IMG/VR virus record: IMGVR_UViG_3300007735_000798 | Location: 40,737 to 104,736 of that record | Origin: a virus | Length of the DNA: 64,000 nucleotides | Direction: 5' to 3' (one strand) | Shown: positions 52,199 to 63,601 of the stretch, in pieces | How the letters are laid out: the number at the start of each line of letters is the position of its first letter | How positions within the stretch are numbered: position 1 is the first letter of the stretch | Translations under genes and position numbers: made by a program | The notes under the pieces: model-generated | Database searches by the model: none | What the model was told of the DNA's origin: nothing | Seen by the model: only the letters and a program-made list of their open reading frames with translations

Positions 52199-52210
52199 CC
52201 CAAACAATTC

Positions 52211-52427: not shown

Positions 52428-52455
52428 TTGCTTTTTTGCAGTCCCGTGCTATTCT
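52428..52455 (+). promoter_or_regulatory. Leaderless promoter after element B
   Basis: TTGCTT, 16 bp, TGCTATTCT, TTAAGC, ATG 52462. Confidence 0.8.
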
Positions 52456-52461
52456 TTAAGC

Positions 52462-52647: not shown

Positions 52648-52648
52648 C

Positions 52649-52676
52649 TTGACTTTTCCCGCATCTCTGGTAGATT
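52649..52676 (+). promoter_or_regulatory. Leaderless promoter, internal type
   Basis: TTGACT, 16 bp, TGGTAGATT, GTAAGT, ATG 52683; overlaps the region just after the previous stop. Confidence 0.8.
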
Positions 52677-52682
52677 GTAAGT

Positions 52683-52856
52683 ATGAAAAACGGATACACT
52701 AAAAGCTGGCGCGCTAAAGAGCGCGTCGAAACTCTCGACCTTCCTCTCGCGGAGGACAACGATCACCCTGTTTGGGTGAAGCGTCCTAAAGACGCTTTCG
52801 AGCGTGAACTGGAGCGGTTGAACCGCGAAGAAAAGCGTAACCGCTGGTCACGCTAA
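52683..52856 (+). CDS. Small charged protein, NGYT-SWR family, copy 1
   Basis: 57 residues (MKNGYTKSWRAKERVETLDL), Arg/Glu-rich throughout with a C-terminal coil (ERELERLNREEKRNRWSR). Paralogue of the protein at 55754 (MNRNGYTRSWREEERLQTLD). Too short for most gene finders, but supported by promoter, start and paralogue. Confidence 0.75.
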   Translation: MKNGYTKSWRAKERVETLDLPLAEDNDHPVWVKRPKDAFERELERLNREEKRNRWSR

Positions 52857-52883
52857 AGCTTGTCAAGCAAAAAAGTGTTCAGC

Positions 52884-52960
52884 GTAAACCACTGAACATC
52901 AAGCGCTTACGACGGCGCGCCCCGCCGCGCGGCGTAACCCGTTGAAAATCAAGCACTTAT
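52884..52960. repeat. 77-bp composite element, copy C
   Basis: 27-23-27 plan with core GGCGCGCCCCGCCGCGCGG. The TTCAGAAAGCGTGCCAAC tail (52972-52989) follows. Confidence 0.9.
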
Positions 52961-53044
52961 GCAAAGCGCCGTTCAGAAAGCGTGCCAACTTCAGAAATTT
53001 TTTTTCTTCAACAAAAAAACTTTAGAAAATCGAAAAGATTTTCA

Positions 53045-53072
53045 TTGCTTTTTGCGCGTTCTGTGATATGCT
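53045..53072 (+). promoter_or_regulatory. Leaderless promoter after element C
   Basis: TTGCTT, 16 bp, TATGCT, GTATGT, ATG 53079. Confidence 0.75.
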
Positions 53073-53078
53073 GTATGT

Positions 53079-53351
53079 ATGAAAAAAGAAATCACCACAA
53101 TCGAACAAGCAAAGAAACTCTCCGTCTTGGAGTTCATGGATTTGTCCACTCTGGAACGCAAACTTCTGGATGAACTGAAGCGCGTTGAATCGCAGGTTGA
53201 ACTGCTCCAGACTTGGCTGGACAACGCTAACCAGTCGTGCGAAACCTTGCGCAAAGCACGCGACAACTATCGCAGACAGCTTGGCATCTCGTCCGATTGG
53301 GACACGATGGAATCTGTCCGCGACAAATACGATGCCAGACATGGCGGATAA
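53079..53351 (+). CDS. Small coiled-coil protein
   Basis: 90 residues, mostly one coiled coil (ERKLLDELKRVESQVELLQT) then an Arg-rich helix (CETLRKARDNYRRQLG). Probably an oligomeric regulator or scaffold; no family recognised. First gene of the longest small-gene cassette. Confidence 0.7.
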   Translation: MKKEITTIEQAKKLSVLEFMDLSTLERKLLDELKRVESQVELLQTWLDNANQSCETLRKARDNYRRQLGISSDWDTMESVRDKYDARHGG

Positions 53352-53357
53352 AATCGC

Positions 53358-53385
53358 TTGACTCTCACCATCTTTCTGCTATTCT
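53358..53385 (+). promoter_or_regulatory. Leaderless promoter, internal type
   Basis: TTGACT, 16 bp, TGCTATTCT, AAAGAC, ATG 53392. Confidence 0.8.
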
Positions 53386-53391
53386 AAAGAC

Positions 53392-53640
53392 ATGAAAAAC
53401 ACCATCACCAAACACGAACTTAACGATCACCTTTGCCACGCTCGCGTTGCTCTGGTTCTTCAGAGCCGCGAACTCTACAAACGCCGCAATGGGTTTTGCG
53501 GAAAATCCTTCCGCCAAACTCTGCGCGACAACATCCGCGCCTTGCGCGTGTTGAGCAATCTCAACACCATCGAAGCGACTCTCTACTCGTCGTTCGCATC
53601 GCCCAAAGTAGGCAAAGCCGAAAAAATTCTCGGCTTGTAA
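53392..53640 (+). CDS. Small helical protein, RNGF family, copy 1
   Basis: 82 residues. HARVALVLQSRELYKRRNGF, then a basic helix and LSNLNTIEATLYSSF. Paralogue of the protein at 58400 (QARIALSKDIRDFLKYRNGF, LSSIDTIDAQLYSF), sharing the R-N-G-F turn and the T-I-[ED]-A-x-L-Y-S end. Family function unknown. Confidence 0.75.
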   Translation: MKNTITKHELNDHLCHARVALVLQSRELYKRRNGFCGKSFRQTLRDNIRALRVLSNLNTIEATLYSSFASPKVGKAEKILGL

Positions 53641-53646
53641 AATCGC

Positions 53647-53674
53647 TTGACTCTCACCATCTTTCTGCTATCAT
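53647..53674 (+). promoter_or_regulatory. Leaderless promoter, internal type
   Basis: TTGACT, 16 bp, TATCAT, then seven bases and ATG 53682. The first 20 bases repeat the previous promoter exactly. Confidence 0.75.
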
Positions 53675-53681
53675 CACTTTT

Positions 53682-53852
53682 ATGAAAAAAGAAAAACTGA
53701 ACCAACACCTCGTCGAAATCTTCCGCGCGATTGATCGGCTCAATCACGCAATCGGCAACGGGAAGATGCCGAAACTCGACAAGGGACAAAAAATCGTCCT
53801 GCGTTCGGCACTCATCACGCTCGACAACATCGCACTAGAGGGACTGCAATAA
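53682..53852 (+). CDS. Small helical protein
   Basis: 56 residues (MKKEKLNQHLVEIFRAIDRL), one long amphipathic helix, a Lys-Gly turn and a second helix. Stop overlaps the next ATG (TAATG), so the two are co-translated. Function unknown. Confidence 0.7.
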   Translation: MKKEKLNQHLVEIFRAIDRLNHAIGNGKMPKLDKGQKIVLRSALITLDNIALEGLQ

Positions 53853-54082
53853 TGTCACAAAACGAAAACATCATGAAGTCGCTTCACGCTCTCGCAAAGC
53901 ATGAGGTTGCCATGCAAGCGCAGGAGGCGGAAATCGTCGAACTGAAAAATCTTTTGTCTCGCGCCTTGCACACCATCACCATGCACGAGCACAAACTCAA
54001 TCTTTTGTGTGGCGTTTCTACCACGCTTGCGGTAGAGTTGCACAAAGTTAAAAATAACCAAATCACATTCGGAGTAAACTAA
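53852..54082 (+). CDS. Small coiled-coil protein
   Basis: 76 residues with a Leu/Glu heptad-like centre (EAEIVELKNLLSRALHTITM) and a hydrophobic end. Coupled to the preceding gene; possible partner. Confidence 0.65.
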   Translation: MSQNENIMKSLHALAKHEVAMQAQEAEIVELKNLLSRALHTITMHEHKLNLLCGVSTTLAVELHKVKNNQITFGVN

Positions 54083-54083
54083 C

Positions 54084-54248
54084 ATGAAAACACAATTGTT
54101 CTCACCCTTGATGCTGGAAAGCGCGGAAGAAAATCTGCGCAAAGAATACGAAAAAAAACTTGGTCGCTTGCCCCTGTGGTGGTATCCTTGCGCTTTCATT
54201 GCTTTTGCAATCCCAATCGTCACTCTAACTCTAATCATATTCACATGA
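54084..54248 (+). CDS. Small single-span membrane protein
   Basis: 54 residues. Charged N-terminal half (ESAEENLRKEYEKKLG), then one transmembrane helix (WWYPCAFIAFAIPIVTLTLI). Follows the coiled-coil gene by 1 nt and overlaps the next ATG (ATGA). Possible inner-membrane early protein; no family recognised. Confidence 0.6.
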   Translation: MKTQLFSPLMLESAEENLRKEYEKKLGRLPLWWYPCAFIAFAIPIVTLTLIIFT

Positions 54249-54400
54249 GCAAAATCATCATGACCATCGACACGCGACCGCTCGCGCGCGCGATTGAGCG
54301 CAGTGTTCGCAAGACCACTTGCCGTCCTTCATTCGCCATGCGTGTCAAGAAAAAATTCACGCGCAAGGCAAAGTTTTTTCGCGGTTGGTCTGACGAGTAA
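54245..54400 (+). CDS. Small highly basic protein
   Basis: 51 residues (MSKIIMTIDTRPLARAIERS) with Arg/Lys runs (RVKKKFTRKAKFFRG), probably nucleic-acid binding. ATG overlaps the upstream stop. Its stop codon lies in the first bases of element D. Confidence 0.6.
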   Translation: MSKIIMTIDTRPLARAIERSVRKTTCRPSFAMRVKKKFTRKAKFFRGWSDE

Positions 54401-54473
54401 AGCGTTGAATATCAACGACTTACGGCGGCGCGCCCCGCCGCGCGACCTAAGTGCTTGAAAATCAACGACTTAC
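54397..54473. repeat. 77-bp composite element, copy D
   Basis: Left dyad includes the TAA of the gene above. Core GGCGGCGCGCCCCGCCGCGC. A diverged tail (GCCGTTCAAGAAGTGTGCC) follows. Confidence 0.9.
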
Positions 54474-54570
54474 GCAAAGCGCCGTTCAAGAAGTGTGCCA
54501 AGTTGCGGAACAAAACGCTCGTTTGAAAAATCATCAACAGAAAAAAGTTACGGAACCGCAAAAAAATCCC

Positions 54571-54598
54571 TTGCTTTTTCGCAGTCTTGTGGTAGAGT
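54571..54598 (+). promoter_or_regulatory. Leaderless promoter after element D
   Basis: TTGCTT, 16 bp, TGGTAGAGT, GTATAC, ATG 54605. Confidence 0.8.
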
Positions 54599-54604
54599 GT
54601 ATAC

Positions 54605-54787
54605 ATGAAAAAGAAATACTACACCACGACAGACATCAATGCCTACGCTCTCCGCAACAAAGCGGTTTGCACATTCGGAGGTTTGAACCTTCGCGTGTTC
54701 AAGGGTTGGACTGCGAAAGGTTCTTACGAGGTGAAATTCCACCGCGTTGACGCTCTCGTGTGGGAGAAAAAAATCGTAAGAAAATAG
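54605..54787 (+). CDS. Small basic protein, MKKKYYT family, copy 2
   Basis: 60 residues (MKKKYYTTTDINAYALRNKA); paralogue of the protein at 52462 with a beta-rich centre (TFGGLNLRVFKGW) and the same Lys-rich end. Both copies are first genes of their cassettes. Confidence 0.75.
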   Translation: MKKKYYTTTDINAYALRNKAVCTFGGLNLRVFKGWTAKGSYEVKFHRVDALVWEKKIVRK

Positions 54788-54788
54788 C

Positions 54789-54816
54789 TTGACTTTTCCC
54801 GCATCTCTGATATCTT
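54789..54816 (+). promoter_or_regulatory. Leaderless promoter, internal type
   Basis: TTGACT, 16 bp, TGATATCTT, AAAAGC, ATG 54823; the -35 starts one base after the TAG stop. Confidence 0.8.
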
Positions 54817-54822
54817 AAAAGC

Positions 54823-55038
54823 ATGAAAAATAAAAACACCACTCCTCAACCGAAAGTCGGACAACTCTGGAGAGTCGCCACTGGCGAACGCAAAGGCGGT
54901 TACACTCTCGTCCGCGTCACCGAAATCATCGGCACTCTGGCTTGTGTTCGCACTCACGAAAACAAACGCGGCCACATCCTGCTGGACTACCTACATCCCG
55001 CCTCGAAAGAGGACATTCAAAACTATCTGAAAAAATAG
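54823..55038 (+). CDS. Small SH3/KOW-like protein
   Basis: 71 residues. VGQLWRVATGERKGGYTLV followed by VTEIIGTLACVRTHEN is the strand-turn-strand plan of small KOW/SH3-like barrels. Could bind RNA or protein. No family recognised. Confidence 0.65.
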   Translation: MKNKNTTPQPKVGQLWRVATGERKGGYTLVRVTEIIGTLACVRTHENKRGHILLDYLHPASKEDIQNYLKK

Positions 55039-55039
55039 T

Positions 55040-55067
55040 TTGACTCTCTCCACATCTCTGATACTCT
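55040..55067 (+). promoter_or_regulatory. Leaderless promoter, internal type
   Basis: TTGACT, 16 bp, TGATACTCT, AAAAGC, ATG 55074. Confidence 0.75.
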
Positions 55068-55073
55068 AAAAGC

Positions 55074-55328
55074 ATGACAACCTACAACGAACAAAAGTGC
55101 TACACGGCAAAGGTGAAAAACCATCTCACGAACAAAACGAAATTTTTCGATGTGTTCGCGCCGTCGATCAGCAAGGCAATCCTGCTCGCTGAAGAACTCG
55201 GCTCCTTGTTCTTCTGCACGGCAAGCGTCGAGTGCATCGCCTGTGGCCTCAATCGCTTGGGCAAAGCTCCTGCCGTCATCACGGACGACATTCCTCCCGC
55301 GCCCACGGAGATGAGTCCAATCATCTAA
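55074..55328 (+). CDS. Small hypothetical protein with four cysteines
   Basis: 84 residues: KCYTAKVKNHLTNKTKFFDVF, a helix (ISKAILLAEELGSLFFC), VECIACG and a Pro-rich end. The KNHLTNKTKFFDVFAPSISKA segment is typical of small single-domain alpha/beta phage proteins. Function unknown. Confidence 0.7.
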   Translation: MTTYNEQKCYTAKVKNHLTNKTKFFDVFAPSISKAILLAEELGSLFFCTASVECIACGLNRLGKAPAVITDDIPPAPTEMSPII

Positions 55329-55336
55329 AAAATCTC

Positions 55337-55364
55337 TTGACAAATTCAAATTTTCTGATAGATT
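55337..55364 (+). promoter_or_regulatory. Leaderless promoter, internal type
   Basis: Consensus TTGACA, 16 bp, TGATAGATT, AAAAGC, ATG 55371. Confidence 0.8.
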
Positions 55365-55370
55365 AAAAGC

Positions 55371-55541
55371 ATGAAAAATAAAAACACCACATATGGTTCG
55401 CGTGAACACACACGCGAGGAGCAGTGCAACTATCGGCTCGTTCAAGACCCGAACGCTCCGAACTACGATCCCAACTGGGAGGATCCAGACCTTCGTCGGT
55501 TAGCTCGCCGTGAGGCTCGCAACTACGGAGGCGACTGGTAA
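55371..55541 (+). CDS. Small charged protein
   Basis: 56 residues (MKNKNTTYGSREHTREEQCN, ending ARREARNYGGDW), Arg/Glu/Asn-rich, probably a disordered or helical peptide. Supported by promoter-start spacing identical to neighbours; short and therefore easily missed. Confidence 0.65.
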   Translation: MKNKNTTYGSREHTREEQCNYRLVQDPNAPNYDPNWEDPDLRRLARREARNYGGDW

Positions 55542-55589
55542 AACAGTCGTTTGAAACACGCGTTTTGTCTTGTCAAAATTACATTCTTT

Positions 55590-55666
55590 GTAAAGTGTTG
55601 AACATCAAGTACTTGCACGGGCGCGCCCCGCCGCGCGACCTAAGTGCTTGAAAATGAACGACTTAT
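55590..55666. repeat. 77-bp composite element, copy E
   Basis: Left dyad less perfect (TGTTGAACATCAAG), core GGGCGCGCCCCGCCGCGCG, right dyad CTTGAAAATGAACG. No tail. Confidence 0.9.
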
Positions 55667-55719
55667 AAATGTCAAGCAAAAAAATAATAAAAAAAATTGC
55701 ACAATCGCAAAAAAAATTC

Positions 55720-55747
55720 TTGCTTTTTACGCGTTCTGTGCTATCTT
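55720..55747 (+). promoter_or_regulatory. Leaderless promoter after element E
   Basis: TTGCTT, 16 bp, TGCTATCTT, GTATAC, ATG 55754. Confidence 0.8.
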
Positions 55748-55753
55748 GTATAC

Positions 55754-55957
55754 ATGAACAGAAACGGATACACCAGAAGCTGGCGCGAAGAAGAGCGTCT
55801 GCAAACCCTCGACCTCCCACTCGGCATTGATCCTTGGGATCCTGCCTACCAACGCAACCCAGAGGCTTACGAGCGCGACATCGAACGGATGAACCGCGCC
55901 GAAGGGCGTTACAACCGCTACGGACTCTGCTATCGGGAGCCTAAAAAAAGCTCTTGA
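55754..55957 (+). CDS. Small charged protein, NGYT-SWR family, copy 2
   Basis: 67 residues (MNRNGYTRSWREEERLQTLD, DLPLGIDPWDPAYQRNPEAY, then a charged end). Paralogue of the protein at 52683 with an extra Pro/Trp segment. Function unknown. Confidence 0.75.
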   Translation: MNRNGYTRSWREEERLQTLDLPLGIDPWDPAYQRNPEAYERDIERMNRAEGRYNRYGLCYREPKKSS

Positions 55958-55982
55958 CCCTAACCACAAAACAAACCACAAT
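55954..55982 (+). promoter_or_regulatory. Weak leaderless promoter
   Basis: TTGACC, 17 bp, degenerate CACAAT, AACACC, ATG 55989. Same geometry, poor -10. Confidence 0.4.
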
Positions 55983-55988
55983 AACACC

Positions 55989-56204
55989 ATGACGAAAAAA
56001 CAATTCGACGCCATCGCAAAAATCTTGGGCAAGCGTCTCGCTGAAAAAGTAGAAGCTCCCATCGGAGAGTATGAAGTTGTCGAAGTCCTCGCGTTGGACT
56101 TTGCGAAATACTTTGCCGAACAGAATCCGCGTTTCGATGAGGATCGCTTTCTGGAAGCGGTTTACGTTTCAACCCCCAACATTCCTGTTGGATCATATAA
56201 ATAA
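55989..56204 (+). CDS. Small alpha-helical protein
   Basis: 71 residues (MTKKQFDAIAKILGKRLAEK), two helices joined by an acidic loop (FAEQNPRFDEDRFLEAVYVS). Starts a run of four closely spaced genes. Family unknown. Confidence 0.7.
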   Translation: MTKKQFDAIAKILGKRLAEKVEAPIGEYEVVEVLALDFAKYFAEQNPRFDEDRFLEAVYVSTPNIPVGSYK

Positions 56205-56207
56205 ATT

Positions 56208-56294
56208 ATGTCAATCTGGGAACCACTCTTTTACCTGTGCATCTTTCCTGCCGCTTGCGGTTTCTTAATCCTCTGGGCAGACTCTAAAAAATAA
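56208..56294 (+). CDS. Tiny single-span membrane protein
   Basis: 28 residues (MSIWEPLFYLCIFPAACGFL), essentially one transmembrane helix with a short Lys end. In an operon with a second membrane protein. Short, so uncertain. Confidence 0.4.
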   Translation: MSIWEPLFYLCIFPAACGFLILWADSKK

Positions 56295-56298
56295 TCTC

Positions 56299-56541
56299 AT
56301 GAAAAAATACATATACACCATCGTGGTTGCTCTGATGAGTAGCCTTCTCACCCTCGTCCTCACTGGCATCGCTGTTTGCGTGTTCATCATCGCGCCGTTC
56401 AACAAAGCGGCTGTTGATCGTGGCTTTGCAAGCTGGGTCGTGACCAACACGGCAACTGGCGCGACCAAATTCGCTTGGAACGAACCCGCGTCAGTCGGTG
56501 AAGATTTCTTCGCGCAAATCGAAAAGCCTCTCGACAAATGA
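56299..56541 (+). CDS. Small membrane-anchored protein
   Basis: 80 residues. N-terminal transmembrane helix (YTIVVALMSSLLTLVLTGIA), then a soluble domain of about 45 residues (WVVTNTATGATKFAWNEPAS). A signal-anchor topology with a periplasmic domain is likely. ATG overlaps into the next gene (ATGA at its end). Confidence 0.65.
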   Translation: MKKYIYTIVVALMSSLLTLVLTGIAVCVFIIAPFNKAAVDRGFASWVVTNTATGATKFAWNEPASVGEDFFAQIEKPLDK

Positions 56542-56735
56542 TCACGCCCAACATCCAAAAAGCACTTGAGTCAAACGGAGTGCGGTTCTTTGCAAAAGAC
56601 TTTCTCATGGAAGGTATGCGGAAAGACTGCGTTGACGCTGTGCATGACGCGCATCTTGTCTATACGCTACTGAAAGAGCGCATGGAAAAAATGCTTGGCA
56701 CGGAAAGCAAAAACGAATACGCTGGAGAAGTATGA
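56538..56735 (+). CDS. Small helical protein
   Basis: 65 residues (MITPNIQKALESNGVRFFAK) with an acidic helical centre (CVDAVHDAHLVYTLLKERME). Overlaps both neighbours by 4 nt, so co-translated. Family unknown. Confidence 0.65.
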   Translation: MITPNIQKALESNGVRFFAKDFLMEGMRKDCVDAVHDAHLVYTLLKERMEKMLGTESKNEYAGEV

Positions 56736-56878
56736 TAAAAATAATCAAACGCCTGTTCGGAATAAATCAAACGCCTGTTTCACTGCTCGCCTTGAGCCTG
56801 TGGCACTACAACACTTCCACATGGCTAGAGCGCGCCATCTGCAACGGCACGATTGACGACTACATCGTAAAGCGTTAA
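56732..56878 (+). CDS. Small protein at end of operon
   Basis: 48 residues (MIKIIKRLFGINQTPVSLLA), amphipathic at the start, with a TWLERAICNGTIDDYIVKR end. The CAAACGCCTGTT segment appears twice in its early DNA. Its stop lies in element F. Function unknown. Confidence 0.55.
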   Translation: MIKIIKRLFGINQTPVSLLALSLWHYNTSTWLERAICNGTIDDYIVKR

Positions 56879-56943
56879 GAATCAACGACTTACGGCGGCG
56901 CGCCCCCGCGCGCATCGTAACTCCTTGAAAATGAACGACTTAT
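56867..56943. repeat. 77-bp composite element, copy F
   Basis: Left dyad contains the TAA of the gene above (56876-56878). Core slightly degenerate (GGCGGCGCGCCCCCGCGCGC). Confidence 0.9.
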
Positions 56944-57028
56944 GAATAGGTGCAAATACTATCATACTAAGGAAAGAATGTCAAGCAAAAAAGCATAAAA
57001 AAATTTTCAAAAAAAATAAAAAAATCCC

Positions 57029-57056
57029 TTGCATTTTTTCAGATGTGTGGTAGTAT
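57029..57056 (+). promoter_or_regulatory. Promoter of structured RNA
   Basis: TTGCAT, 16 bp, TGGTAGTAT, GTATAC, then ATG 57063 followed at once by a stop (ATG AGA TAA), so no protein is made. Confidence 0.75.
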
Positions 57057-57062
57057 GTATAC

Positions 57063-57266
57063 ATGAGATAAAGATAAGGACATAAACCAACCCACAGAGA
57101 GCCTCGTGCCTGCAAGTTGGTTGTCCCACATCGGCACAATTTTTGATTAAGAAAAGACATGAAAGTGTCGGGGTTCATTCTCAAGAAGGGTTGATCGCCA
57201 GAAAAGAGAGAGTGACGAAAGCGTTGGATCGTAATGACTAGGCCTCCTTAATCAAACTTTTTTATT
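57063..57266 (+). ncRNA. Candidate structured phage RNA, about 200 nt
   Basis: RNA predicted from the promoter above. Visible structure: hairpin AACCAAC / GTTGGTT extended by GGAC / GTCC; GTGCC in its loop is complementary to GGCAC just downstream, an H-type pseudoknot; then a perfect 10-bp closing stem TTTGATTAAG (57142-57151) / CTTAATCAAA (57247-57256), followed by six T. Inside it a small GACA/TGTC hairpin. I do not recognise the family. A role as regulator or mimic is inference. Confidence 0.65.
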
Positions 57267-57292
57267 GACTTTTTTCTGCGTTCGTATAAACT
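57265..57292 (+). promoter_or_regulatory. Leaderless promoter
   Basis: TTGACT, 16 bp, TAAACT, TTAACC, ATG 57299. The -35 sits at the terminator-like T tract of the RNA. Confidence 0.7.
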
Positions 57293-57298
57293 TTAACC

Positions 57299-57529
57299 AT
57301 GCTAAGTAAAACACCACAAGTGGGAGACAAGATCATGTATCGGTTCTCCCAAGGCAGAACCAAACACCCTGCAACCATCATCGCCATCGAGGGCGAACAC
57401 TGCATCTTCACGCTCGATGGGGACTGCGACGAGATAAGCGGCGTCCGTGGCACGAAGTGGCCCATGTGGCACGGACTGCTCTACGACTACGACGAGACGC
57501 TTGTCAAGAAAAAAAGAAGGTGGCGATAA
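57299..57529 (+). CDS. Small SH3/KOW-like protein
   Basis: 76 residues. VGDKIMYRFSQGRTKHPATI and EGEHCIFTLDGDCDE give alternating strands as in small barrels; the C-terminus is Lys/Arg-rich (LVKKKRRWR). Similar plan to the protein at 54823 without clear identity. Stop lies in element G. Confidence 0.65.
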   Translation: MLSKTPQVGDKIMYRFSQGRTKHPATIIAIEGEHCIFTLDGDCDEISGVRGTKWPMWHGLLYDYDETLVKKKRRWR

Positions 57530-57602
57530 GCCACTGAACATCAACGACTTACGGGGCTGCGCCCCGCCGTCCGTCGTAAGTGCTTGATACTCAACGGTTT
57601 AT
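57526..57602. repeat. 77-bp composite element, copy G
   Basis: Left dyad includes the TAA stop. Core variant GGGGCTGCGCCCCGCC. Confidence 0.9.
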
Positions 57603-57771
57603 GCATTTATGAAAAAATACAAAATCGTCATAGTAAATGAATAAATAATTACCAATTACTGATTACCATATCTTAATTCTAACTATTTGACCAAAAGCTA
57701 TTTCACAATTTTACCGTGAACTTGTCAAGAATAAAAATGCAAAAATAAAAAATAATTTTTAGAAAAATCTC
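57603..57771. other. AT-rich gap with a 34-nt repeat
   Basis: No gene. A 34-nt segment at 57681-57714 (AACTATTT...GCTATTTCAC...TAC) recurs with 26 of 34 bases matching at 61187-61220, before the tRNAs. A 10-codon ORF at 57608 is not supported. Confidence 0.5.
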
Positions 57772-57799
57772 TTGCGTTTTTGTATGTCTGTGCTATTCT
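57772..57799 (+). promoter_or_regulatory. Leaderless promoter after element G
   Basis: TTGCGT, 16 bp, TGCTATTCT, GTATGC, ATG 57806. Confidence 0.8.
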
Positions 57800-57805
57800 G
57801 TATGC

Positions 57806-58003
57806 ATGACAGAAAAAGAAACCACCAAGTGCCCCAAGTGCGGGGGGAAAGCCACGCAAACCTACGAGCCACCCTATCAGGAATACGCTGGAGCCAGCGT
57901 TCAGGGCGGCTACTACTACGTTGAGTGCCCGTGCGGTCACGAGGGCACTCAGGAGGCCAGCCTCGACGACTACAACTGGCAAGAGAATACGAGGGGCTGG
58001 TAA
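57806..58003 (+). CDS. Small zinc-ribbon protein
   Basis: 65 residues with two CxxC knuckles (CPKCGG, CPCGHEG) about 30 residues apart and a Tyr-rich middle (GGYYYVEC), a classic zinc ribbon. Sole gene of its cassette; stop inside element H. Likely nucleic-acid or protein binding. Confidence 0.8.
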   Translation: MTEKETTKCPKCGGKATQTYEPPYQEYAGASVQGGYYYVECPCGHEGTQEASLDDYNWQENTRGW

Positions 58004-58076
58004 GCCCCTCATTCTCAACAACTTACGGCGGCACGCCCCGCCGCGCGACCTAAGTGCTTGAAAATGAACGACTTAC
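58000..58076. repeat. 77-bp composite element, copy H
   Basis: Left dyad includes the TAA stop and is the most diverged (CCCTCATTCTCAAC). The tail holds a perfect CACTTTC/GAAAGTG dyad. Confidence 0.9.
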
Positions 58077-58128
58077 ATAAAACCACTTTCAGAAAGTGTG
58101 CCAACCTTGGGGCCTGGTCGCACTTTTG

Positions 58129-58147
58129 CGTAAAGTAGCACTTTACG
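58129..58147. repeat. Perfect 8-bp inverted repeat
   Basis: CGTAAAGT, 3-nt spacer, ACTTTACG, 28 bp upstream of the next -35. Operator or hairpin; nothing decides. Confidence 0.5.
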
Positions 58148-58174
58148 AAATAGTGACGAGCCGAAAAAAATCCG

Positions 58175-58202
58175 TTGCATTTTCGCGCCGCTGTGGTAGA
58201 GT
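58175..58202 (+). promoter_or_regulatory. Leaderless promoter after element H
   Basis: TTGCAT, 16 bp, TGGTAGAGT, GTATGC, ATG 58209. Confidence 0.75.
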
Positions 58203-58208
58203 GTATGC

Positions 58209-58361
58209 ATGACAGAGAAAGAAAAACAAATCCAAGACATCACCGCAAAAATCGAACAAGTCGCAGAGGATTTGATCGACCCTATGCTGGACGATCAAAC
58301 GACTGTTTTGCTCAACCACTTGAGCAAGCTCCGCAAAAAACTTGCGGCACTGCAAAAATAA
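58209..58361 (+). CDS. Small helical protein
   Basis: 50 residues (MTEKEKQIQDITAKIEQVAE, ending HLSKLRKKLAALQK), two amphipathic helices, probably a coiled-coil dimer. Too short for standard gene calling, but promoter and start geometry match neighbours. Confidence 0.65.
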   Translation: MTEKEKQIQDITAKIEQVAEDLIDPMLDDQTTVLLNHLSKLRKKLAALQK

Positions 58362-58364
58362 TCC

Positions 58365-58393
58365 TTGCAACCAAACGCAAAATCAGAGAAAAT
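58365..58393 (+). promoter_or_regulatory. Weak leaderless promoter
   Basis: TTGCAA, 17 bp, GAAAAT, AAAATC, ATG 58400. Degenerate -10. Confidence 0.35.
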
Positions 58394-58399
58394 AAAATC

Positions 58400-58639
58400 A
58401 TGAAAGTCACCAAAATTGAAATGAATGAAGCCCTCATCCAAGCTCGCATTGCCTTGTCGAAAGACATCCGCGATTTCTTGAAATATCGCAATGGGTTTCT
58501 GGCTGAAACTTACCGCAGGAACATCCGCGAAAAAATCGCGGCCTATCGTCTCCTCTCCAGCATCGACACAATCGACGCTCAACTCTACTCGTTCGACGCT
58601 CGCACTCGCGCAAGGGTGAAAAAAGCCCTTGCCAAGTAA
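58400..58639 (+). CDS. Small helical protein, RNGF family, copy 2
   Basis: 79 residues (MKVTKIEMNEALIQARIALS); paralogue of the protein at 53392. Charged helices around the R-N-G-F turn. Both copies are second genes of their cassettes. Confidence 0.75.
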   Translation: MKVTKIEMNEALIQARIALSKDIRDFLKYRNGFLAETYRRNIREKIAAYRLLSSIDTIDAQLYSFDARTRARVKKALAK

Positions 58640-58657
58640 GTCAAATTCTGCGAAAAT
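58629..58657 (+). promoter_or_regulatory. Weak leaderless promoter
   Basis: TTGCCA, 17 bp, GAAAAT, seven bases, ATG 58665. It overlaps the end of the preceding gene. Confidence 0.35.
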
Positions 58658-58664
58658 CACCACC

Positions 58665-59339
58665 ATGAAATTACTCGCCACCAACACCAAACTCGAAAAG
58701 GGCGCATCCTTTGGATGGCGCACACTCGGACTCTCACTCTCTCCCGCTGGAAAATCTGGCAAGCAATTCTGTCCGCATCGCTCGGCAGGTTGTGAAGCCG
58801 CTTGCCTTGACACTTCGGGCATGGGAATTTTTTCTAATGTTCAAGATGCGCGCCTTGCCAAGTCGCGTTTCTTCATCGACAAGCGCAACGATTTTCTCGC
58901 GCAGTTGAACCGCGAAATGCACAACGCGGAAAAAATGTCCGTGCGCACAAGCGTGCCCGTTGCCGTGCGTCTCAATGTCTTGTCTGACCTTCCGTGGCAC
59001 AAGCTGATCGACATGGCGCGCTTTCCATCAATCCAGTTTTACGACTACACGCCGAACATGGAACGCATGATGCAATTCCTTCGCGGTGAACTTCCGAAAA
59101 ATTATCACCTGACATTCTCGCGCAAGGAGGACAATCAGCATCGCGTTCACGCTGTCATCGCCGCTGGCGGTAATGTTGCGGTTGCGTTCAACAAACTTCC
59201 CGACACCTATCTCGGCAAGCCTGTGATCGACGGAGACAAAAGCGATCTGCGCTTTCTCGACGCGCAGGGCGTGATCGTCGGACTCAAAGCAAAAGGCAAG
59301 GGGAAGAAAGATACCTCTGGCTTCGTGGTGCAAATCTGA
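58665..59339 (+). CDS. GP88-family phage protein
   Basis: 224 residues. The N-terminal signature LSLSPAGKSGKQFCPHRSAG followed by CEAACLDTSGMG is that of the phage GP88 family; three cysteines (C, then C, C) could bind metal. Later ARLAKSRFFIDKRNDFLAQL and FYDYTPNMERMMQF are conserved-looking. Function of the family is unknown to me. Largest protein of this part of the arm. ATG 58665 matches the family start. Confidence 0.85.
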   Translation: MKLLATNTKLEKGASFGWRTLGLSLSPAGKSGKQFCPHRSAGCEAACLDTSGMGIFSNVQDARLAKSRFFIDKRNDFLAQLNREMHNAEKMSVRTSVPVAVRLNVLSDLPWHKLIDMARFPSIQFYDYTPNMERMMQFLRGELPKNYHLTFSRKEDNQHRVHAVIAAGGNVAVAFNKLPDTYLGKPVIDGDKSDLRFLDAQGVIVGLKAKGKGKKDTSGFVVQI

Positions 59340-59340
59340 A

Positions 59341-59346
59341 TATAAT
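59341..59346 (+). promoter_or_regulatory. TATAAT -10 without clear -35
   Basis: Perfect TATAAT directly after the stop of the GP88 gene, eight bases before ATG 59355. No TTGACA at 16-18 bp. Confidence 0.4.
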
Positions 59347-59354
59347 GGGCACTT

Positions 59355-59423
59355 ATGGAAATAATTTCTTTGCTCGTTGTCATTCTCTGCGCTTTTGCAA
59401 TCAATCATAACTCAAAAAAATAA
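59355..59423 (+). CDS. Tiny single-span membrane protein
   Basis: 22 residues (MEIISLLVVILCAFAINHNS), one hydrophobic helix. A third tiny membrane peptide of this arm; short and uncertain. Confidence 0.4.
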   Translation: MEIISLLVVILCAFAINHNSKK

Positions 59424-59428
59424 AAACT

Positions 59429-59587
59429 ATGACATCTAATCTAATCGCACGAAAAAACTTGTTCAGCTTGTCGCAAAAATTTTTCAGCTTGGCCCTATGG
59501 TCGGAGCGCGCAGGCATCACGCCTCTGCAAAAACTTTCTTTCGCCATCTGGAAAAAATTGCTTGACACACGCGACAAACTGCGGTGA
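59429..59587 (+). CDS. Small hydrophobic/basic protein
   Basis: 52 residues (MTSNLIARKNLFSLSQKFFS), amphipathic helices with Trp/Phe, ending LLDTRDKLR. Follows the tiny membrane gene by 5 nt; no separate promoter. Its end nearly touches element I. Confidence 0.5.
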   Translation: MTSNLIARKNLFSLSQKFFSLALWSERAGITPLQKLSFAIWKKLLDTRDKLR

Positions 59588-59588
59588 C

Positions 59589-59665
59589 GTAAAGCGTTGA
59601 TAATCAACGACTTACGGGCGCGCGCCCCGCCGCGCGGCGTAAGTGCCTGGAAATCAACGACTTAT
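59589..59665. repeat. 77-bp composite element, copy I
   Basis: Left dyad one of the best (CGTTGATAATCAACG perfect). Core GGGCGCGCGCCCCGCCGCGC. Diverged tail to 59694 (ATTCAAGAACCATGCCAAC). Confidence 0.9.
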
Positions 59666-59749
59666 GCAGAACCACATTCAAGAACCATGCCAACTTGTCA
59701 AACTTTTTTTCGTCAACAAAAATACTTTCTAAAAATGCAAAAAAATCCG

Positions 59750-59777
59750 TTGCATTCTCGCGCGGCTGTGGTATAGT
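59750..59777 (+). promoter_or_regulatory. Leaderless promoter after element I
   Basis: TTGCAT, 16 bp, TGGTATAGT, TACATC, ATG 59784. Confidence 0.8.
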
Positions 59778-59783
59778 TACATC

Positions 59784-59918
59784 ATGCAAGCAAGCTCCAT
59801 CATCAACGACGACTTCACCGCAACCATCCAGAGCGACGAGTTCGCAACGGAATTCGAGGCATGGCTCGACGAGCAGGAAAAAAATTATTGGCGCGAAATT
59901 GAAGCGGAGGGAAATTAA
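59784..59918 (+). CDS. Small acidic protein
   Basis: 44 residues (MQASSIINDDFTATIQSDEF, ending YWREIEAEGN), very acidic. Promoter at its exact start supports it despite its length. Confidence 0.6.
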   Translation: MQASSIINDDFTATIQSDEFATEFEAWLDEQEKNYWREIEAEGN

Positions 59919-59922
59919 CCGC

Positions 59923-59953
59923 TTGACACTCGCGCACGAATCACCGATACTTT
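59923..59953 (+). promoter_or_regulatory. Promoter, internal type
   Basis: TTGACA, long 19-bp spacer, TACTTT, seven bases, ATG 59961. A GATACT at 17 bp is an alternative. Confidence 0.55.
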
Positions 59954-59960
59954 AGACCTT

Positions 59961-60245
59961 ATGCAAACACCACAAAACCCATTGGAGGGATATGTCTCCA
60001 TCTGCTGCGGAGTGCAGCACGACATCAACGCAGAATACACCATCGACAACGAGGATGTCGTCGGCGGTTGCTGCTCCTGCAAACGCTACGCGGAATTCGT
60101 TCCTGCGGAGGACTTCGTTCGCCGCAAGCGCGGCGTGATCAATCGCCTTGCGTTTTCGGGAGTTAATCAATCCCAAGCCTCTGCGCTCGCTTCGCTCAAC
60201 TCGTTCGTGCCAGACGACACGGACTACCACATGGACTTGTGGTAA
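59961..60245 (+). CDS. Hypothetical protein with Cys-rich centre
   Basis: 94 residues. VSICCGVQHDINAEYTID, then GGCCSCKRYAEF and a basic helix (FVRRKRGVINRLAFSG). Four to five cysteines could form a metal site. No family recognised. Confidence 0.7.
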   Translation: MQTPQNPLEGYVSICCGVQHDINAEYTIDNEDVVGGCCSCKRYAEFVPAEDFVRRKRGVINRLAFSGVNQSQASALASLNSFVPDDTDYHMDLW

Positions 60246-60250
60246 ACCGC

Positions 60251-60279
60251 TTGACACTCACACGCTCACTCTCTAAACT
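60251..60279 (+). promoter_or_regulatory. Leaderless-type promoter
   Basis: TTGACA, 17 bp, TAAACT, nine bases, ATG 60289; slightly longer gap than usual. Confidence 0.65.
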
Positions 60280-60288
60280 CTCAACTCT

Positions 60289-60783
60289 ATGGAACAAGCT
60301 AAAATCATAATCAGCACATACGGCAACGGCATCGCTGTCGGCCTCAACGGAACACGCGAACAGATCACGCGCACATTCAACCGATTCTTTAATTGGGGTG
60401 CTGCTGGTGCTGGCGCAAACTTCATGCGCTCAAATCAAGACTGCGAGATGCAGCATGGCGAATTGGGTGACTCCTACTTGCACGAAATCGGGGAAAACTT
60501 TTCCTACTTCCTCTCGACTGACGAGAACATGGTTCGTGCTCTGACTGCCGAGACGATTACAAAGTGGCAGGACTCTCCGATCAGCGAGCAATATAAGTCT
60601 CGCCCTCGTCACCATAAGAAACCAAACGGCACAAAGTTCGTGCGTGATGCGGTTGCCGCTGCGACTGCGGAATATAATTCTTTCGCACGCGAAAACTTCA
60701 TGCTGTTCGGCAAAACTCCCACACACATCTACCAGCAACTCGATGGCGGCGCGCCGTCTTGGATCAGCGAAACGGAGGACTAA
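60289..60783 (+). CDS. Hypothetical protein
   Basis: 164 residues. Starts with a beta-alpha unit (KIIISTYGNGIAVGLNGTRE), Gly/Ala turn (WGAAGAGANFMRS), then acidic helices and a basic segment (YKSRPRHHKKPNGTKF). Compact alpha/beta, no family recognised. Confidence 0.7.
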   Translation: MEQAKIIISTYGNGIAVGLNGTREQITRTFNRFFNWGAAGAGANFMRSNQDCEMQHGELGDSYLHEIGENFSYFLSTDENMVRALTAETITKWQDSPISEQYKSRPRHHKKPNGTKFVRDAVAAATAEYNSFARENFMLFGKTPTHIYQQLDGGAPSWISETED

Positions 60784-60786
60784 TCT

Positions 60787-61041
60787 ATGTCACACATAGT
60801 TATAGAAATCAAAGGCGAGCTTTGGAGTTTCATTTGTGCAAATCCTAATCTGGGCAGCTATGACATACTCGCCAAGTATAGCAATAAAGGAAAAACAATC
60901 GTGAATAAAAACTTCGGAGAAAAAAATTCTATTGAACTTATAGGAGTCACTCACCTAGAAGTTGCTGCAATTAAGTTTGCGGAAAGCATATACTATGACA
61001 CACATCCGCGCCCAAACCTTGTCAATATAAAAAAATACTAA
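60787..61041 (+). CDS. Hypothetical protein
   Basis: 84 residues (MSHIVIEIKGELWSFICANP), beta-rich start, then helix (LEVAAIKFAESIYYDTHP). More AT-rich than its neighbours. No own promoter; 3 nt after the upstream stop. Confidence 0.65.
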   Translation: MSHIVIEIKGELWSFICANPNLGSYDILAKYSNKGKTIVNKNFGEKNSIELIGVTHLEVAAIKFAESIYYDTHPRPNLVNIKKY

Positions 61042-61042
61042 T

Positions 61043-61119
61043 GTAAAACGCTAATAATCAACGACTTACAGCGGCGCGCCCAGCCGCTCGGCGTAATTCC
61101 TTGAATATCAGCATTTTAC
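61043..61119. repeat. 77-bp composite element, copy J
   Basis: Dyads are imperfect (CGCTAATAATCAACG, CCTTGAATATCAGC); core GCGGCGCGCCCAGCCGC. It lies 1 nt after the stop of the gene above. Confidence 0.85.
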
Positions 61120-61242
61120 AAAAAATCAACTCCTACTCTAGAATCTGATAAATAATTCTGATAATCTATAATATATTCCCCTATTTAACTATTTAGCCTT
61201 TCGCTATTTCACTATTATACAAAAATATTTTTACTATTTAGC
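61120..61242. other. AT-rich gap before tRNAs
   Basis: No gene. It contains the second copy (61187-61220) of the 34-nt AT-rich segment also seen at 57681-57714. Confidence 0.5.
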
Positions 61243-61270
61243 TTGATTTTTTTGAAATTTGTTGTAGATT
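61243..61270 (+). promoter_or_regulatory. Promoter directly before tRNA
   Basis: TTGATT, 16 bp, TAGATT, seven bases to the first tRNA base (61278): predicted start equals the tRNA 5' end. Confidence 0.7.
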
Positions 61271-61277
61271 TATAGAT

Positions 61278-61350
61278 GCGGGGCAATGTTCCAAGGCTGG
61301 CGAGAAGGTCTCCAAAACCATCTGGCAGAGTTCGATTCTCTGGCCTCGTG
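61278..61350 (+). tRNA. tRNA-Trp-like (anticodon CCA), imperfect
   Basis: Acceptor GCGGGGC pairs with GCCTCGT (two wobbles), anticodon loop CTCCAAA gives CCA, T-arm CAGAG-TTCGATT-CTCTG is perfect. The anticodon stem has one A-A mismatch and the D-stem is only three or four pairs, so folding is weaker than usual. No encoded CCA end. It could be functional or decaying. Confidence 0.65.
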
Positions 61351-61353
61351 CGC

Positions 61354-61425
61354 GGGATGGTAGCTCAAAGGTAGAGCAGCGCCCTTTTAAGGCGTTGGTT
61401 GTGAGTTCGATCCTCACCCATCCCA
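61354..61425 (+). tRNA. tRNA-Lys (UUU)
   Basis: Cloverleaf complete: acceptor GGGATGG/CCATCCC, D-arm GCTC-AAAGGTA-GAGC, anticodon loop CTTTTAA (UUU), T-arm GTGAG-TTCGATC-CTCAC. No encoded CCA. Three nt after the Trp-like tRNA, same transcript. It reads AAA/AAG, abundant in the AT-rich left arm. Confidence 0.95.
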
Positions 61426-61436
61426 TAAAAAATCCA

Positions 61437-61464
61437 TTGACAAATCAATTTTTTCTGATATATT
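61437..61464 (+). promoter_or_regulatory. Leaderless promoter after tRNAs
   Basis: TTGACA, 16 bp, TATATT, AGGTGT, ATG 61471. Confidence 0.8.
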
Positions 61465-61470
61465 AGGTGT

Positions 61471-61599
61471 ATGAAAAAGAAAACCACCGCTGAAAAAACT
61501 CTCACCGAGATTGCCAAGATCGCCCTGTTTGAGGCTAACGCCAAAACTGGCCTAAAAAAAATCCAAAAAATCTTGGAAAATTTTCAAAAAACCCATTGA
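61471..61599 (+). CDS. Small basic helical protein
   Basis: 42 residues (MKKKTTAEKTLTEIAKIALF), one amphipathic helix with Lys runs. Promoter-start geometry supports it. Its stop TGA overlaps the next promoter -35 (TTGACA). Confidence 0.6.
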   Translation: MKKKTTAEKTLTEIAKIALFEANAKTGLKKIQKILENFQKTH

Positions 61600-61624
61600 C
61601 ATTTCAATCAAATCCTTGTATTCT
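61596..61624 (+). promoter_or_regulatory. Leaderless promoter overlapping stop codon
   Basis: TTGACA (includes the TGA stop), 17 bp, TATTCT, ATAAAA, ATG 61631. Confidence 0.8.
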
Positions 61625-61630
61625 ATAAAA

Positions 61631-61894
61631 ATGAAAGCACTACTAAAGAAAATCAAACTGGCAATCGCAGACTCCAAGTTCGGACAACTCTCCAATCCTG
61701 TGTATAGGTTGAAGTATCGTCCTTACACGGATCACGGAAACAAGGAGGTCTATGACTACCTCGTTTCGCGGCCCTTCGATGGGTTCGTGAATGGCTTCAC
61801 CGCCTACTGCTTCGGCAAGGGCGTTCGTAGGTTCCGCTTTGACGAGATCGTTGATCGTGAAGTGGTTCACATCTTTGGAAAGTCAGTTGCATAA
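61631..61894 (+). CDS. Small WYL-like domain protein
   Basis: 87 residues. YRLKYRPYTDHGNKEVYDYL then GFTAYCFGKGVRRFRFDEIV follows the WYL domain pattern (Y-x-x-x-Y..., A-Y-C-x(4)-R-R-F-R-x-D-x-I). WYL domains sense nucleic-acid ligands in transcription regulators. A stand-alone copy in a phage could be a sensor; this is inferred from pattern only. Confidence 0.55.
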   Translation: MKALLKKIKLAIADSKFGQLSNPVYRLKYRPYTDHGNKEVYDYLVSRPFDGFVNGFTAYCFGKGVRRFRFDEIVDREVVHIFGKSVA

Positions 61895-61916
61895 CTTTTG
61901 CTCAATTAAATATCTG
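61887..61916 (+). promoter_or_regulatory. Possible promoter of large RNA
   Basis: TTGCAT, 17-18 bp, TATCTG or ATATCT, overlapping the end of the WYL-like gene; predicted start near 61920. Confidence 0.4.
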
Positions 61917-62640
61917 CGAGTTCATAGCCAGAGGGAACTGGTGTCCACGCGCAGAGAATAAACTCCCACAATTTTTAGTTCTTTTACAATTTGCAAAACA
62001 AGCCCGAATAAAGTATCGGAATAAAAGATGGACAGAAACAAGGGTCTGTCGTCATACATAAAACCCTCCGAGGCTGAAATCATTTTTTCCGAAAGGAAGA
62101 GAATATCCAATGCTTCTATAGAACCGATGTGCGCTCGGATGCTGCTTGGAGAATAAGGCGCACAAAAAATTTTACCAACCCATTCCGAAAACCCCAATGA
62201 TTGTTGGGGAACCATGCTACGGCATAGGGGTGGGTGGTAAAAAACTCTCCCAAGCTCTGGCGGACATTTCTCCGTTCAACTTGTGAGCTAGTCGCCGCAA
62301 GGCGATTCGATGTCGGTGCTGCCAGAAGGCACGGAGTCAACGGCAGGGAGTTCTGGCCTCCCTGTCACACTTTCTTTGAAAAAAATTTGATGGTCTACTA
62401 ACCATAGTCTAGAAAGAGAGGTTAGTAGCGTAAGCCGACGCCGTTATAGTTTAGGGCCATCTACACATCCGATTGGGAGTAATGAACCAATAGTCAGAAC
62501 CCACTGATGAAGAGAAGCAGATCATGCCTGTGATAAGGGGGATGGTCACCGTGACCCGCGTTCGGCACGCGTTAGCTGTATCGGCCCGATTCCGCAAGGA
62601 AAAAGACGGCAAGAGAAAGCAGCCGAACTTCTTAATTATC
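61917..62640 (+). ncRNA. Candidate large structured RNA, about 700 nt
   Basis: No convincing gene in either strand, but dense secondary structure. Stems seen in order: CTGCG/CGCAG; GACAGA/TCTGTC; TTCC-GAAA-GGAA; TGTGCGC/GCGCACA; TTTTACCA-CCC/GGG-TGGTAAAA enclosing CCCCAA/TTGGGG and ATGC/GCAT hairpins; TCGCC-GCAA-GGCGA; TGCC-AGAA-GGCA; CAGGGAG/CTCCCTG; CTACTAACC/GGTTAGTAG; GGTCAC/GTGACC; CGCGT/ACGCG. At least two loops are GNRA. Size, phage context, and tRNA genes just upstream resemble the giant phage RNAs such as GOLLD or ROOL; family membership is not established. The 3' end probably runs into element K. Confidence 0.7.
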
Positions 62641-62700
62641 AAGCACTTACAACGGCGCGCCCCGCCGCGCCACTTAAGTCGTTCATTATCAACACTTTAC
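62624..62700. repeat. 77-bp composite element, copy K
   Basis: Left dyad CTTCTTAATTATCAAG, core GGCGCGCCCCGCCGCGCC, right dyad TCGTTCATTATCAAC. It follows the large RNA and may be its terminator. Confidence 0.85.
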
Positions 62701-62719
62701 ATTTTCAACATGGAAAATC

Positions 62720-62748
62720 TTGACAGGCGCATAGAAAACGTGTAATAG
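62720..62748 (+). promoter_or_regulatory. Promoter with no gene at its start
   Basis: TTGACA, 17 bp, TAATAG; predicted start near 62755 in CCAAATTTGG, with no ATG. Could make a short RNA ahead of the glycosylase-like gene. Confidence 0.55.
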
Positions 62749-62840
62749 TTCAAGCCAAATTTGGACAACAGCCCACAGAAGGTGTATTTGTAACAAAAAT
62801 CATCAGCGGCTATCAACAAAAATATTTTCTACAAAACCAG

Positions 62841-62869
62841 TTGACAATAAAATCAAATAGGGCTATCTT
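62841..62869 (+). promoter_or_regulatory. Leaderless promoter
   Basis: TTGACA, 17 bp, TATCTT, TAGAGC, ATG 62876. Confidence 0.85.
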
Positions 62870-62875
62870 TAGAGC

Positions 62876-63601
62876 ATGATCACCACACAACTGCCTCTCC
62901 CTATGCGTTGCTCGTCTGACGCTTTGGTGCAACCCGAATTGGAATTGAAGCCTACGCGCAATCCGCAATTCATGCGCGTCGAAAAATTCTTTGACTCGCT
63001 CGACCGCTCGCGTGTTAGCGAGTATGTTGACTACTGGACTTCTATCGCGCCCAAGGGAACGCAAGACTCAATGTTGCGTTGGCTGTTCGCGTTCATGTCT
63101 GTGCATACAAGCTGGAAGTCTAATGTCAACGGCTACAATGCAATCAAGACTCTCGACTGGTGGCACGATCAGCAAGTTCTTCTCAACAAGCTCAAGCATA
63201 GTGGCGTTGGCTTGCACAACAACCGCACAAAGTTTGTGTGGGAGTTCCAGCAAAAGTTCTGGAAAGACATTCCGAAATACTCGCATGAACCCGCGCATTG
63301 GCGCAACCATCGTGATCAACTCGTCAAGGATGTTCTTGGTCTTGGCAAGGCCAAAGTCTCGTTCTCCTTGGAGATGATGCATCCCGACAAGTGCGAGGTT
63401 GTCTGCATGGATACTCATATGTTCCAAGCCTACGGACTCGACCAAACCAAAGACGAAAAACATTACGATAACATTGAGGCTCATTGGATCACCATGTGCC
63501 GCGCATACGATGTTCCTTGCTACATCGCTCGCTGTTTGTATTGGGATGCGATCCAAGACAAGCAGGACTCGCGCTACTGGTCGTATGTTTTTGAAGAATA
63601 A
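62876..63601 (+). CDS. HhH DNA-glycosylase-like protein
   Basis: 241 residues. The core runs from FAFMSVHTSWKSNVNGYNAI through LKHSGVGLHNNRTKFVWEFQ to a helix-hairpin-helix VLGLGKAKVSFSLEMM followed by the Asp motif VCMDTHMF, the layout of HhH-GPD/OGG glycosylases (HhH then Asp). It may remove oxidised bases from phage or host DNA. The Lys of bifunctional enzymes sits within the HhH segment (GKAK), fitting OGG type; activity is inference. Confidence 0.7.
   Translation: MITTQLPLPMRCSSDALVQPELELKPTRNPQFMRVEKFFDSLDRSRVSEYVDYWTSIAPKGTQDSMLRWLFAFMSVHTSWKSNVNGYNAIKTLDWWHDQQVLLNKLKHSGVGLHNNRTKFVWEFQQKFWKDIPKYSHEPAHWRNHRDQLVKDVLGLGKAKVSFSLEMMHPDKCEVVCMDTHMFQAYGLDQTKDEKHYDNIEAHWITMCRAYDVPCYIARCLYWDAIQDKQDSRYWSYVFEE

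Follow-up and report, generated by a model that had tools for sequence, protein, structure and literature searches.

A conserved, modular array of structured RNA elements in a phage tRNA region

Introduction

What is encoded by some 730 bases in the tRNA region of a phage genome that contain no credible gene? The stretch lies 3' of an 87-aa reading frame in the window, by which we mean the whole 64,000-nucleotide segment analysed here, drawn from a 104,736-base virus record (IMGVR_UViG_3300007735_000798). A sequence-only reading of this DNA had proposed a giant structured RNA, possibly GOLLD-like, that follows directly on a pair of tRNA genes and has a possible promoter at its start. Comparison with related phages characterises the locus instead as a conserved, non-coding and structured region that is built of modules (Table 1).

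Table 1. Positions of features in the window
Feature	Start	End	Strand	Remarks
Second RNA site, modules S and N	57088	57262	+	precedes 76-aa ORF; N = 57143-57262
tRNA-Trp (CCA)	61278	61351	+	ARAGORN; upstream end of putative tRNA/RNA operon
tRNA-Lys (TTT)	61354	61425	+	ARAGORN, Rfam
Promoter-like TTGACA-17-TATTCT	61596	61624	+	consensus match only; 5' of conserved small gene and array
Conserved 87-aa gene	61631	61894	+	directly 5' of array in 8/8 window-group phages, 79-95% identity
Structured RNA locus	61906	62634	+	~730 bases, 3' of tRNA-Trp and tRNA-Lys
Module C	61906	61976	+	stem TCTGCG/CGCAGA 61913-61918/61950-61955; outer stem covaries
Module C, proposed pseudoknot	61933	61967	+	loop GGGA 61933-61936 with TCCC 61964-61967; pairs in 83% of cells as aligned
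Junction sequence TTCTTTTACAATTTG	61979	61993	+	in ~1 Mb of phage records, inside arrays only
Module B, paralogue of A	61998	62078	+	P1 AGCC/GGCU 62001-62004/62072-62075
Module B, P3	62031	62050	+	GACAGA/UCUGUC 62031-62036/62045-62050; A/B alignment
Module B, pseudoknot	62042	62066	+	GGG 62042-62044 with CCC 62064-62066; A/B alignment
Module E	62096	62166	+	proposed 7 bp pseudoknot from sequence: loop TGTGCGC 62128-62134 with GCGCACA 62158-62164
Module G	62166	62243	+	three-way junction on TTTTACCA/TGGTAAAA, 62170-62177 with 62235-62242; fold of module alone z = -4.2
Core module H	62246	62370	+	covariation, covariance model R1
H, hairpin CGG/CCG	62261	62274	+	62261-62263/62272-62274; loop ACAT 62264-62267 pairs with ATGT 62310-62313
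H, GNRA hairpin	62290	62307	+	module H structure
H, hairpin with loop GCCAGAA	62316	62332	+	loop 62321-62327; module H structure
H, hairpin with loop TTCTGGC	62342	62366	+	loop 62351-62357; module H structure
Module I	62386	62462	+	long hairpin CUACUAACC/GGUUAGUAG within GAUGG/CCAUC; also L009, L010, variant in L025
3'-terminal module J	62470	62634	+	in relatives tRNA-Cys follows ~4 nt on
Intergenic palindromic repeat	62633	62697	+	bounds putative operon; one of about a dozen in small-gene region

Genomic context and database searches

The absence of a plausible gene, noted in the sequence-only reading, is confirmed. Homologous arrays differ by insertion, deletion and reordering of whole blocks, and their pattern of change is non-coding. 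The proposed position holds in part, since the tRNAs do lie upstream but two small reading frames (61471-61599 and 61631-61894) intervene. The suspected promoter was not recovered, as no promoter-like site is present where the RNA begins; the closest ones (61437-61464 and 61596-61624) lie 5' of the two small reading frames. This arrangement makes co-transcription with the upstream gene likely, and the array would probably form the 3' part of a tRNA-mRNA-RNA operon. Wherever tRNAs are near, the array is on the strand of the upstream tRNAs. In six relatives (L009-L012, L014 and L021) a tRNA-Cys gene starts about 4 nt (TTTC) past the last conserved array block. This gene is missing in the window, where the array and a palindromic repeat are joined, and none is found near the L025, L035 and L047 arrays, though modules remain there.

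The repeat is an imperfect intergenic palindrome of ~60-80 bp, with the form TCAACGACTTAC-GGCGGCGCGCC...GCGCG-GTAAGTGCTTGA. About a dozen copies lie between genes of the small-gene region of the window (51095-62697; for example 54398-54476, 56868-56944 and 61050-61116), and related phages carry many copies on both strands. The repeat may serve as a terminator or recombination site, or may be a mobile element.

The 87-aa protein is predicted to form a helix and a small beta-barrel, and its RRFRFDEI motif recalls WYL domains. It has no Pfam match, and we rejected its assignment as a WYL protein; its likeness to the WYL-domain protein PafBC is a lead only, because the Foldseek matches are non-significant (E = 0.19 and 0.28, model pLDDT 70). 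The protein might bind the array RNA. A neighbouring gene has a weak, below-cutoff match to Ogg-HhH. One virion protein has 41% identity to cyanophage S-RIM32, a match that does not settle the host.

Membership in the GOLLD family is unsupported: Rfam gave no match over the array of the window at E<=10, nor over nine related loci at E<=5 and E<=2, and in covariance-model searches none of GOLLD, ROOL and HEARO matched at the gathering threshold or at E<=10. Across 61420-62900 nothing in Rfam reached the gathering threshold, and at E<=10 only a weak sRNA match appeared, just 3' of tRNA-Lys and outside the array. Four arrays were compared by blastn with 50,697 phage records, and one with plasmids; no meaningful match emerged.

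Modules and their order in related phages

Ten distinct arrays are known (Table 2), of which eight come from the phages that we call the window group. The gene downstream of the array (62876-63601) identified six IMG/VR loci, L009 to L014, with L012 and L013 identical there; DNA patterns from conserved parts added L021, L025, L032 (partial) and the more distant L035, and a pattern from module C added L047. Several further pattern matches were rejected: L034 and L036-L040 encode VLPEGTG in one phage lineage, L041-L046 are chance coding matches, and the 35 bacterial-genome matches to a relaxed H pattern are attributed to chance because none can form both hairpins.

Table 2. Order of modules in the ten arrays (slash, junction motif)
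Array	Order
Window	C/B-E-G-H-I-J
L009	A-D/B-F-H-I-J
L010	/B-G2-H-I-J
L011	A-B-C/E-F-H-J
L012	A-B-D-C/F-H-J
L014	A-B-C/F-L-H-J
L021	A-B-C/K-L-H; nothing 3' of H
L025	A/K-(O)-H-(I variant)
L035	(X)-C-K-E/L-M; H alone 1.9 kb off, across coding genes
L047	P/N-C/Q-K/R-M

Even in a plain comparison, a segment that is 3' in the window is 5' in L011, L012 and L014. Mapping by similarity, which also set the module ends, reveals that modules recur in changed order and are gained and lost as blocks, with neighbours mostly within ~20 nt of each other. Several modules, D, J, K, M and N among them, were mapped from separate seeds, whereas O, X and the I variant were left unmapped; the labels D (blocks in L009 and L012), J (three sequence versions of the 3' block), O, X and I variant group blocks by position or structure. 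We found at least 15 module types of ~55-185 nt, several of them pseudoknotted. A and B are the sole clear paralogues, C and E resemble each other weakly, and the other modules are mutually unrelated. Over whole records, the covariance models for H (R1) and C (R2) give at most one strong match per record, and the A/B model (R3) scores strongly only at array copies over the loci examined.

The modules differ in their distribution. H is ~90% conserved, occurs in all eight window-group arrays, and is found once in nine of the ten phage records by R1; L047 has no detectable H across its 86-kb record despite its array. The L035 and L047 records may be fragments, and absence there is thus not proof. 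Module C has homologues in L011, L012, L014, L021, L035 and L047. G is found in the window only, with other modules in its place in the relatives, and J is absent from L021 and L025 and has a different sequence in L009 and L012. At least H and N also occur outside arrays, since H is solitary in L035 and N is found at the second RNA site of the window, where it is 88% identical over 68 nt to a member of the L047 array. Module S, its neighbour at that site, has a hairpin AACCAAC/GUUGGUU, whose loop GUGCC is complementary to GGCAC downstream.

Modules C and E both start with AAUAUC and both carry GAGAAUAA just 5' of the proposed pseudoknot strand. With the weak match of the C model to module E of L035 (E = 0.9), these common features suggest that the two may be old paralogues.

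The junction motif TTCTTTKACA is almost confined to arrays, and all seven occurrences of TTCTTTKACA(N)TTTG in ~1 Mb of these records are inside them. The motif usually occurs once per array and not between every module pair; the L010 array starts at it, and there the upstream stop codon overlaps the motif. Its placement makes it a candidate site for cleavage or recombination. We rejected its interpretation as an internal sigma-70 promoter, as TTKACA resembles a -35 element yet no -10 is present.

Structure and covariation

On the + strand, positions 61910-62650 fold better than 20 of 20 shuffles, with a moderately low z of -2.95 (-1.8 for the - strand), and several single modules are not significant by energy. 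Of the structures that the sequence-only reading had pointed to, the multi-branched stem proved real and corresponds to module G; the two GNRA loops are GAAA at ~62091-62094 and GCAA at 62297-62300, the latter on a covarying stem. That reading lacked the pseudoknots, in which several hairpin loops are complementary to downstream strands.

Structures were drawn from comparison, and pairs were then counted on MAFFT alignments; since the sequences counted are those from which the structures came, comparison with shuffles is the fairer test. In module H (nine sequences) 96.8% of the cells are paired, 10 of 35 pairs changed on both sides, and none of 500 shuffles reached the score, with the signal coming mostly from the variable GNRA-loop hairpin and the last hairpin. 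The A/B alignment is 99.2% paired with 6 of 13 pairs changed on both sides (0/500 shuffles), and the pseudoknot between its loop and the downstream strand covaries as GGG/CCC, GCG/CGC and CGGAU/AUCCG. Five pairs changed on both sides in each of K (100% paired, 1/500 shuffles), F (100%, 2/500) and I (92.2%, 2/500), and for J RNAalifold predicts 27 pairs, 8 of which changed on both sides. Covariation is weaker in C, where 95.5% of cells are paired and one pair covaries strongly, with three pair types, but 6 of 500 shuffles reach the score; the register of its pseudoknot shifts between the window group and L035 and L047. Module E has too few differences for covariation, and G has only the window copy. 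Covariation thus supports helices in seven module families (A/B, C, F, H, I, J and K), and the compensatory changes that the sequence-only reading had named as a check are present. What stands of the giant RNA it envisaged is a structured, covarying locus in a phage tRNA region; a single fold is replaced by a mosaic of modules.

The two 7-nt loops of module H, GCCAGAA and TTCTGGC, are fully complementary, and we propose that they form kissing loops; both are invariant, and covariation therefore neither supports nor refutes their pairing. GCCAGAA has an alternative partner in CTGGC upstream (62255-62260), and going by these complementarities H is possibly a two-state switch. Energy folding favours a long helix, CUGGCGG/CCGCCAG, which we did not adopt since it is disrupted in L035 and partly in the window; it may be an alternative state of H. 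The twister-like look of A/B (GCCCGA...UCGG-AAUAAAAG) was also considered, and this assignment was rejected because a twister match in Rfam is absent.

Exchange of modules between phages

Some modules are nearly identical in phages that otherwise have little in common. L014 and L035 carry copies of module L that agree at all of 99 nt, although their compared stretches otherwise share only a few short, weakly similar protein matches; the matches of an L035 reading frame to L014 and L021 are module L itself. Module C is 97% identical between L035 and L047. The module E of the window recurs in L035 and L011 with 96-97% identity over 67 nt, and E, too, is shared (96%) by phages whose compared stretches have only a few short protein matches in common. 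Between the compared stretches of L035 or L047 and the window group there are short protein matches only, the clearest being one L047 reading frame with ~36-46% identity. This suggests that modules either move between phages or are under very strong constraint, and function is implied either way.

Discussion

The reading that we prefer, at about an even chance, is a mosaic array within an operon, made up of autonomous, exchangeable structured RNA modules that are co-transcribed with the tRNAs and perhaps act in trans. In its favour we count the non-collinear order, the solitary H and N, the covariation, the near-identity of L and E, the spacing to tRNA-Cys and the confinement of the junction motif to arrays. 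The presence of H in every window-group array counts against it, as this fits a scaffold core.

That last observation is the best argument for the main rival, which we consider unlikely: a single large ornate RNA as in GOLLD or ROOL, in which H serves as core or multimerisation element amid an interchangeable periphery formed by the other modules. The high conservation of H fits such a role, and its invariant 7-nt loops could join two molecules. However, in L035 H lies 1.9 kb from the array with coding genes in between, and this, with the array of L047 that has no detectable H, is the best counter-argument; moreover, L021 has nothing 3' of H, and the order of the modules is not fixed.

A less probable alternative is that the modules are cis-acting leader or trailer structures that protect or pace the maturation of the tRNA-operon transcript and have no separate function. 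Stable RNA folds block exonucleases, and the link to tRNA-Cys is tight where the gene is present. Nevertheless, modules persist in the four arrays that have no tRNA-Cys nearby, and their near-identity between distant phages exceeds the needs of a simple barrier. Tandem self-cleaving ribozymes or ligand-binding aptamers are more improbable still: the compact pseudoknots, the size and the strongly conserved loop bases in A/B, C and H are in keeping with them, but the Rfam searches above gave no ribozyme or riboswitch match and no downstream genes are regulated consistently. Finally, a stretch of ordinary intergenic DNA in which stems arise by chance, or a decayed gene, agrees with the modest folding energies but is already refuted by covariation that exceeds column shuffles in five module alignments, and more weakly in a sixth, and by the non-coding pattern of change, which makes it a most improbable reading.

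If the locus is an array of autonomous modules, it would be transcribed together with the 87-aa gene and the flanking tRNAs, and in the relatives cleavage by RNase P at tRNA-Cys would set its 3' end. The placement of the junctions suggests that the transcript could be cut at these single-stranded, U-rich sites into small stable RNAs. Most speculatively, the modules may bind different host factors in trans; their most plausible role would be that of decoys or inhibitors directed at proteins of host defence or RNA processing. They may also be turned over by recombination since different hosts would demand different modules. Pseudo-ToxI, a phage array of pseudoknot RNA that neutralises a host toxin and evolves by expansion and recombination (PMC3475682), is by analogy a precedent for the decoy idea. 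No recognised defence gene lies beside the arrays; phage decoys need not carry the toxin gene. We suggest, with more doubt than we attach to the array itself, that phages share a recombining pool of many structured RNA cassettes, which tRNA operons would take up as swappable payloads against host factors. Such a pool would parallel, at the RNA level, the variable islands of anti-defence genes in phages.

Comparison with known phage RNAs

The tRNA cluster of phage T4 contains the small stable RNAs 1 and 2 (C and D), whose function is unknown and which are transcribed within the cluster. By description, these are two fixed RNAs and no shuffled array. HEARO combines an Rfam model with an IsrB/HNH gene, and here neither is found, the neighbours being the 87-aa gene and the gene with the Ogg-HhH match. 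GOLLD, a structured RNA of >700 nt, is found in phages close to tRNA genes and is partly conserved and partly variable (PMC12286853); the arrays share its size, its proximity to tRNA genes and its mixture of conserved and variable parts. However, GOLLD has one conserved 3' domain and a variable 5' half, whereas the most conserved module here, H, is internal, separate in L035 and absent in L047; the arrays have reordered and in part solitary modules and match no covariance model. GOLLD forms a 14-mer RNA cage, and the arrays are known from sequence alone. ROOL, an RNA of phages and prophages near tRNA islands, with multiple pseudoknots and no known function (PMC12286853), is similar in these features, but the arrays do not match its covariance model. 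ROOL has a single conserved fold that forms an octamer; sequence comparison of the arrays reveals no single conserved fold or order of parts.

The likeness to ToxI and pseudo-ToxI, as phage arrays of pseudoknot RNA units, is one of working principle and not of family: ToxI consists of near-identical 36-nt repeats, whereas the modules here are longer and mostly unrelated to one another. No ToxI match was found in Rfam, no ToxN/AbiQ-type toxin gene is adjacent, and tandem near-identical repeats are absent.

The known structured RNAs of phages are thus either single large families (GOLLD and ROOL) or repeated identical units (ToxI). The organisation of the arrays, together with the absence of an Rfam match, points to a kind of swappable phage RNA previously undescribed in the open-access literature. 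A shuffled array of unrelated modules that is exchanged between distant phages in tRNA operons would be a new non-coding strategy for viruses, and at least 15 new kinds of RNA module, seven families of which have structure models, can now be searched for and tested singly.
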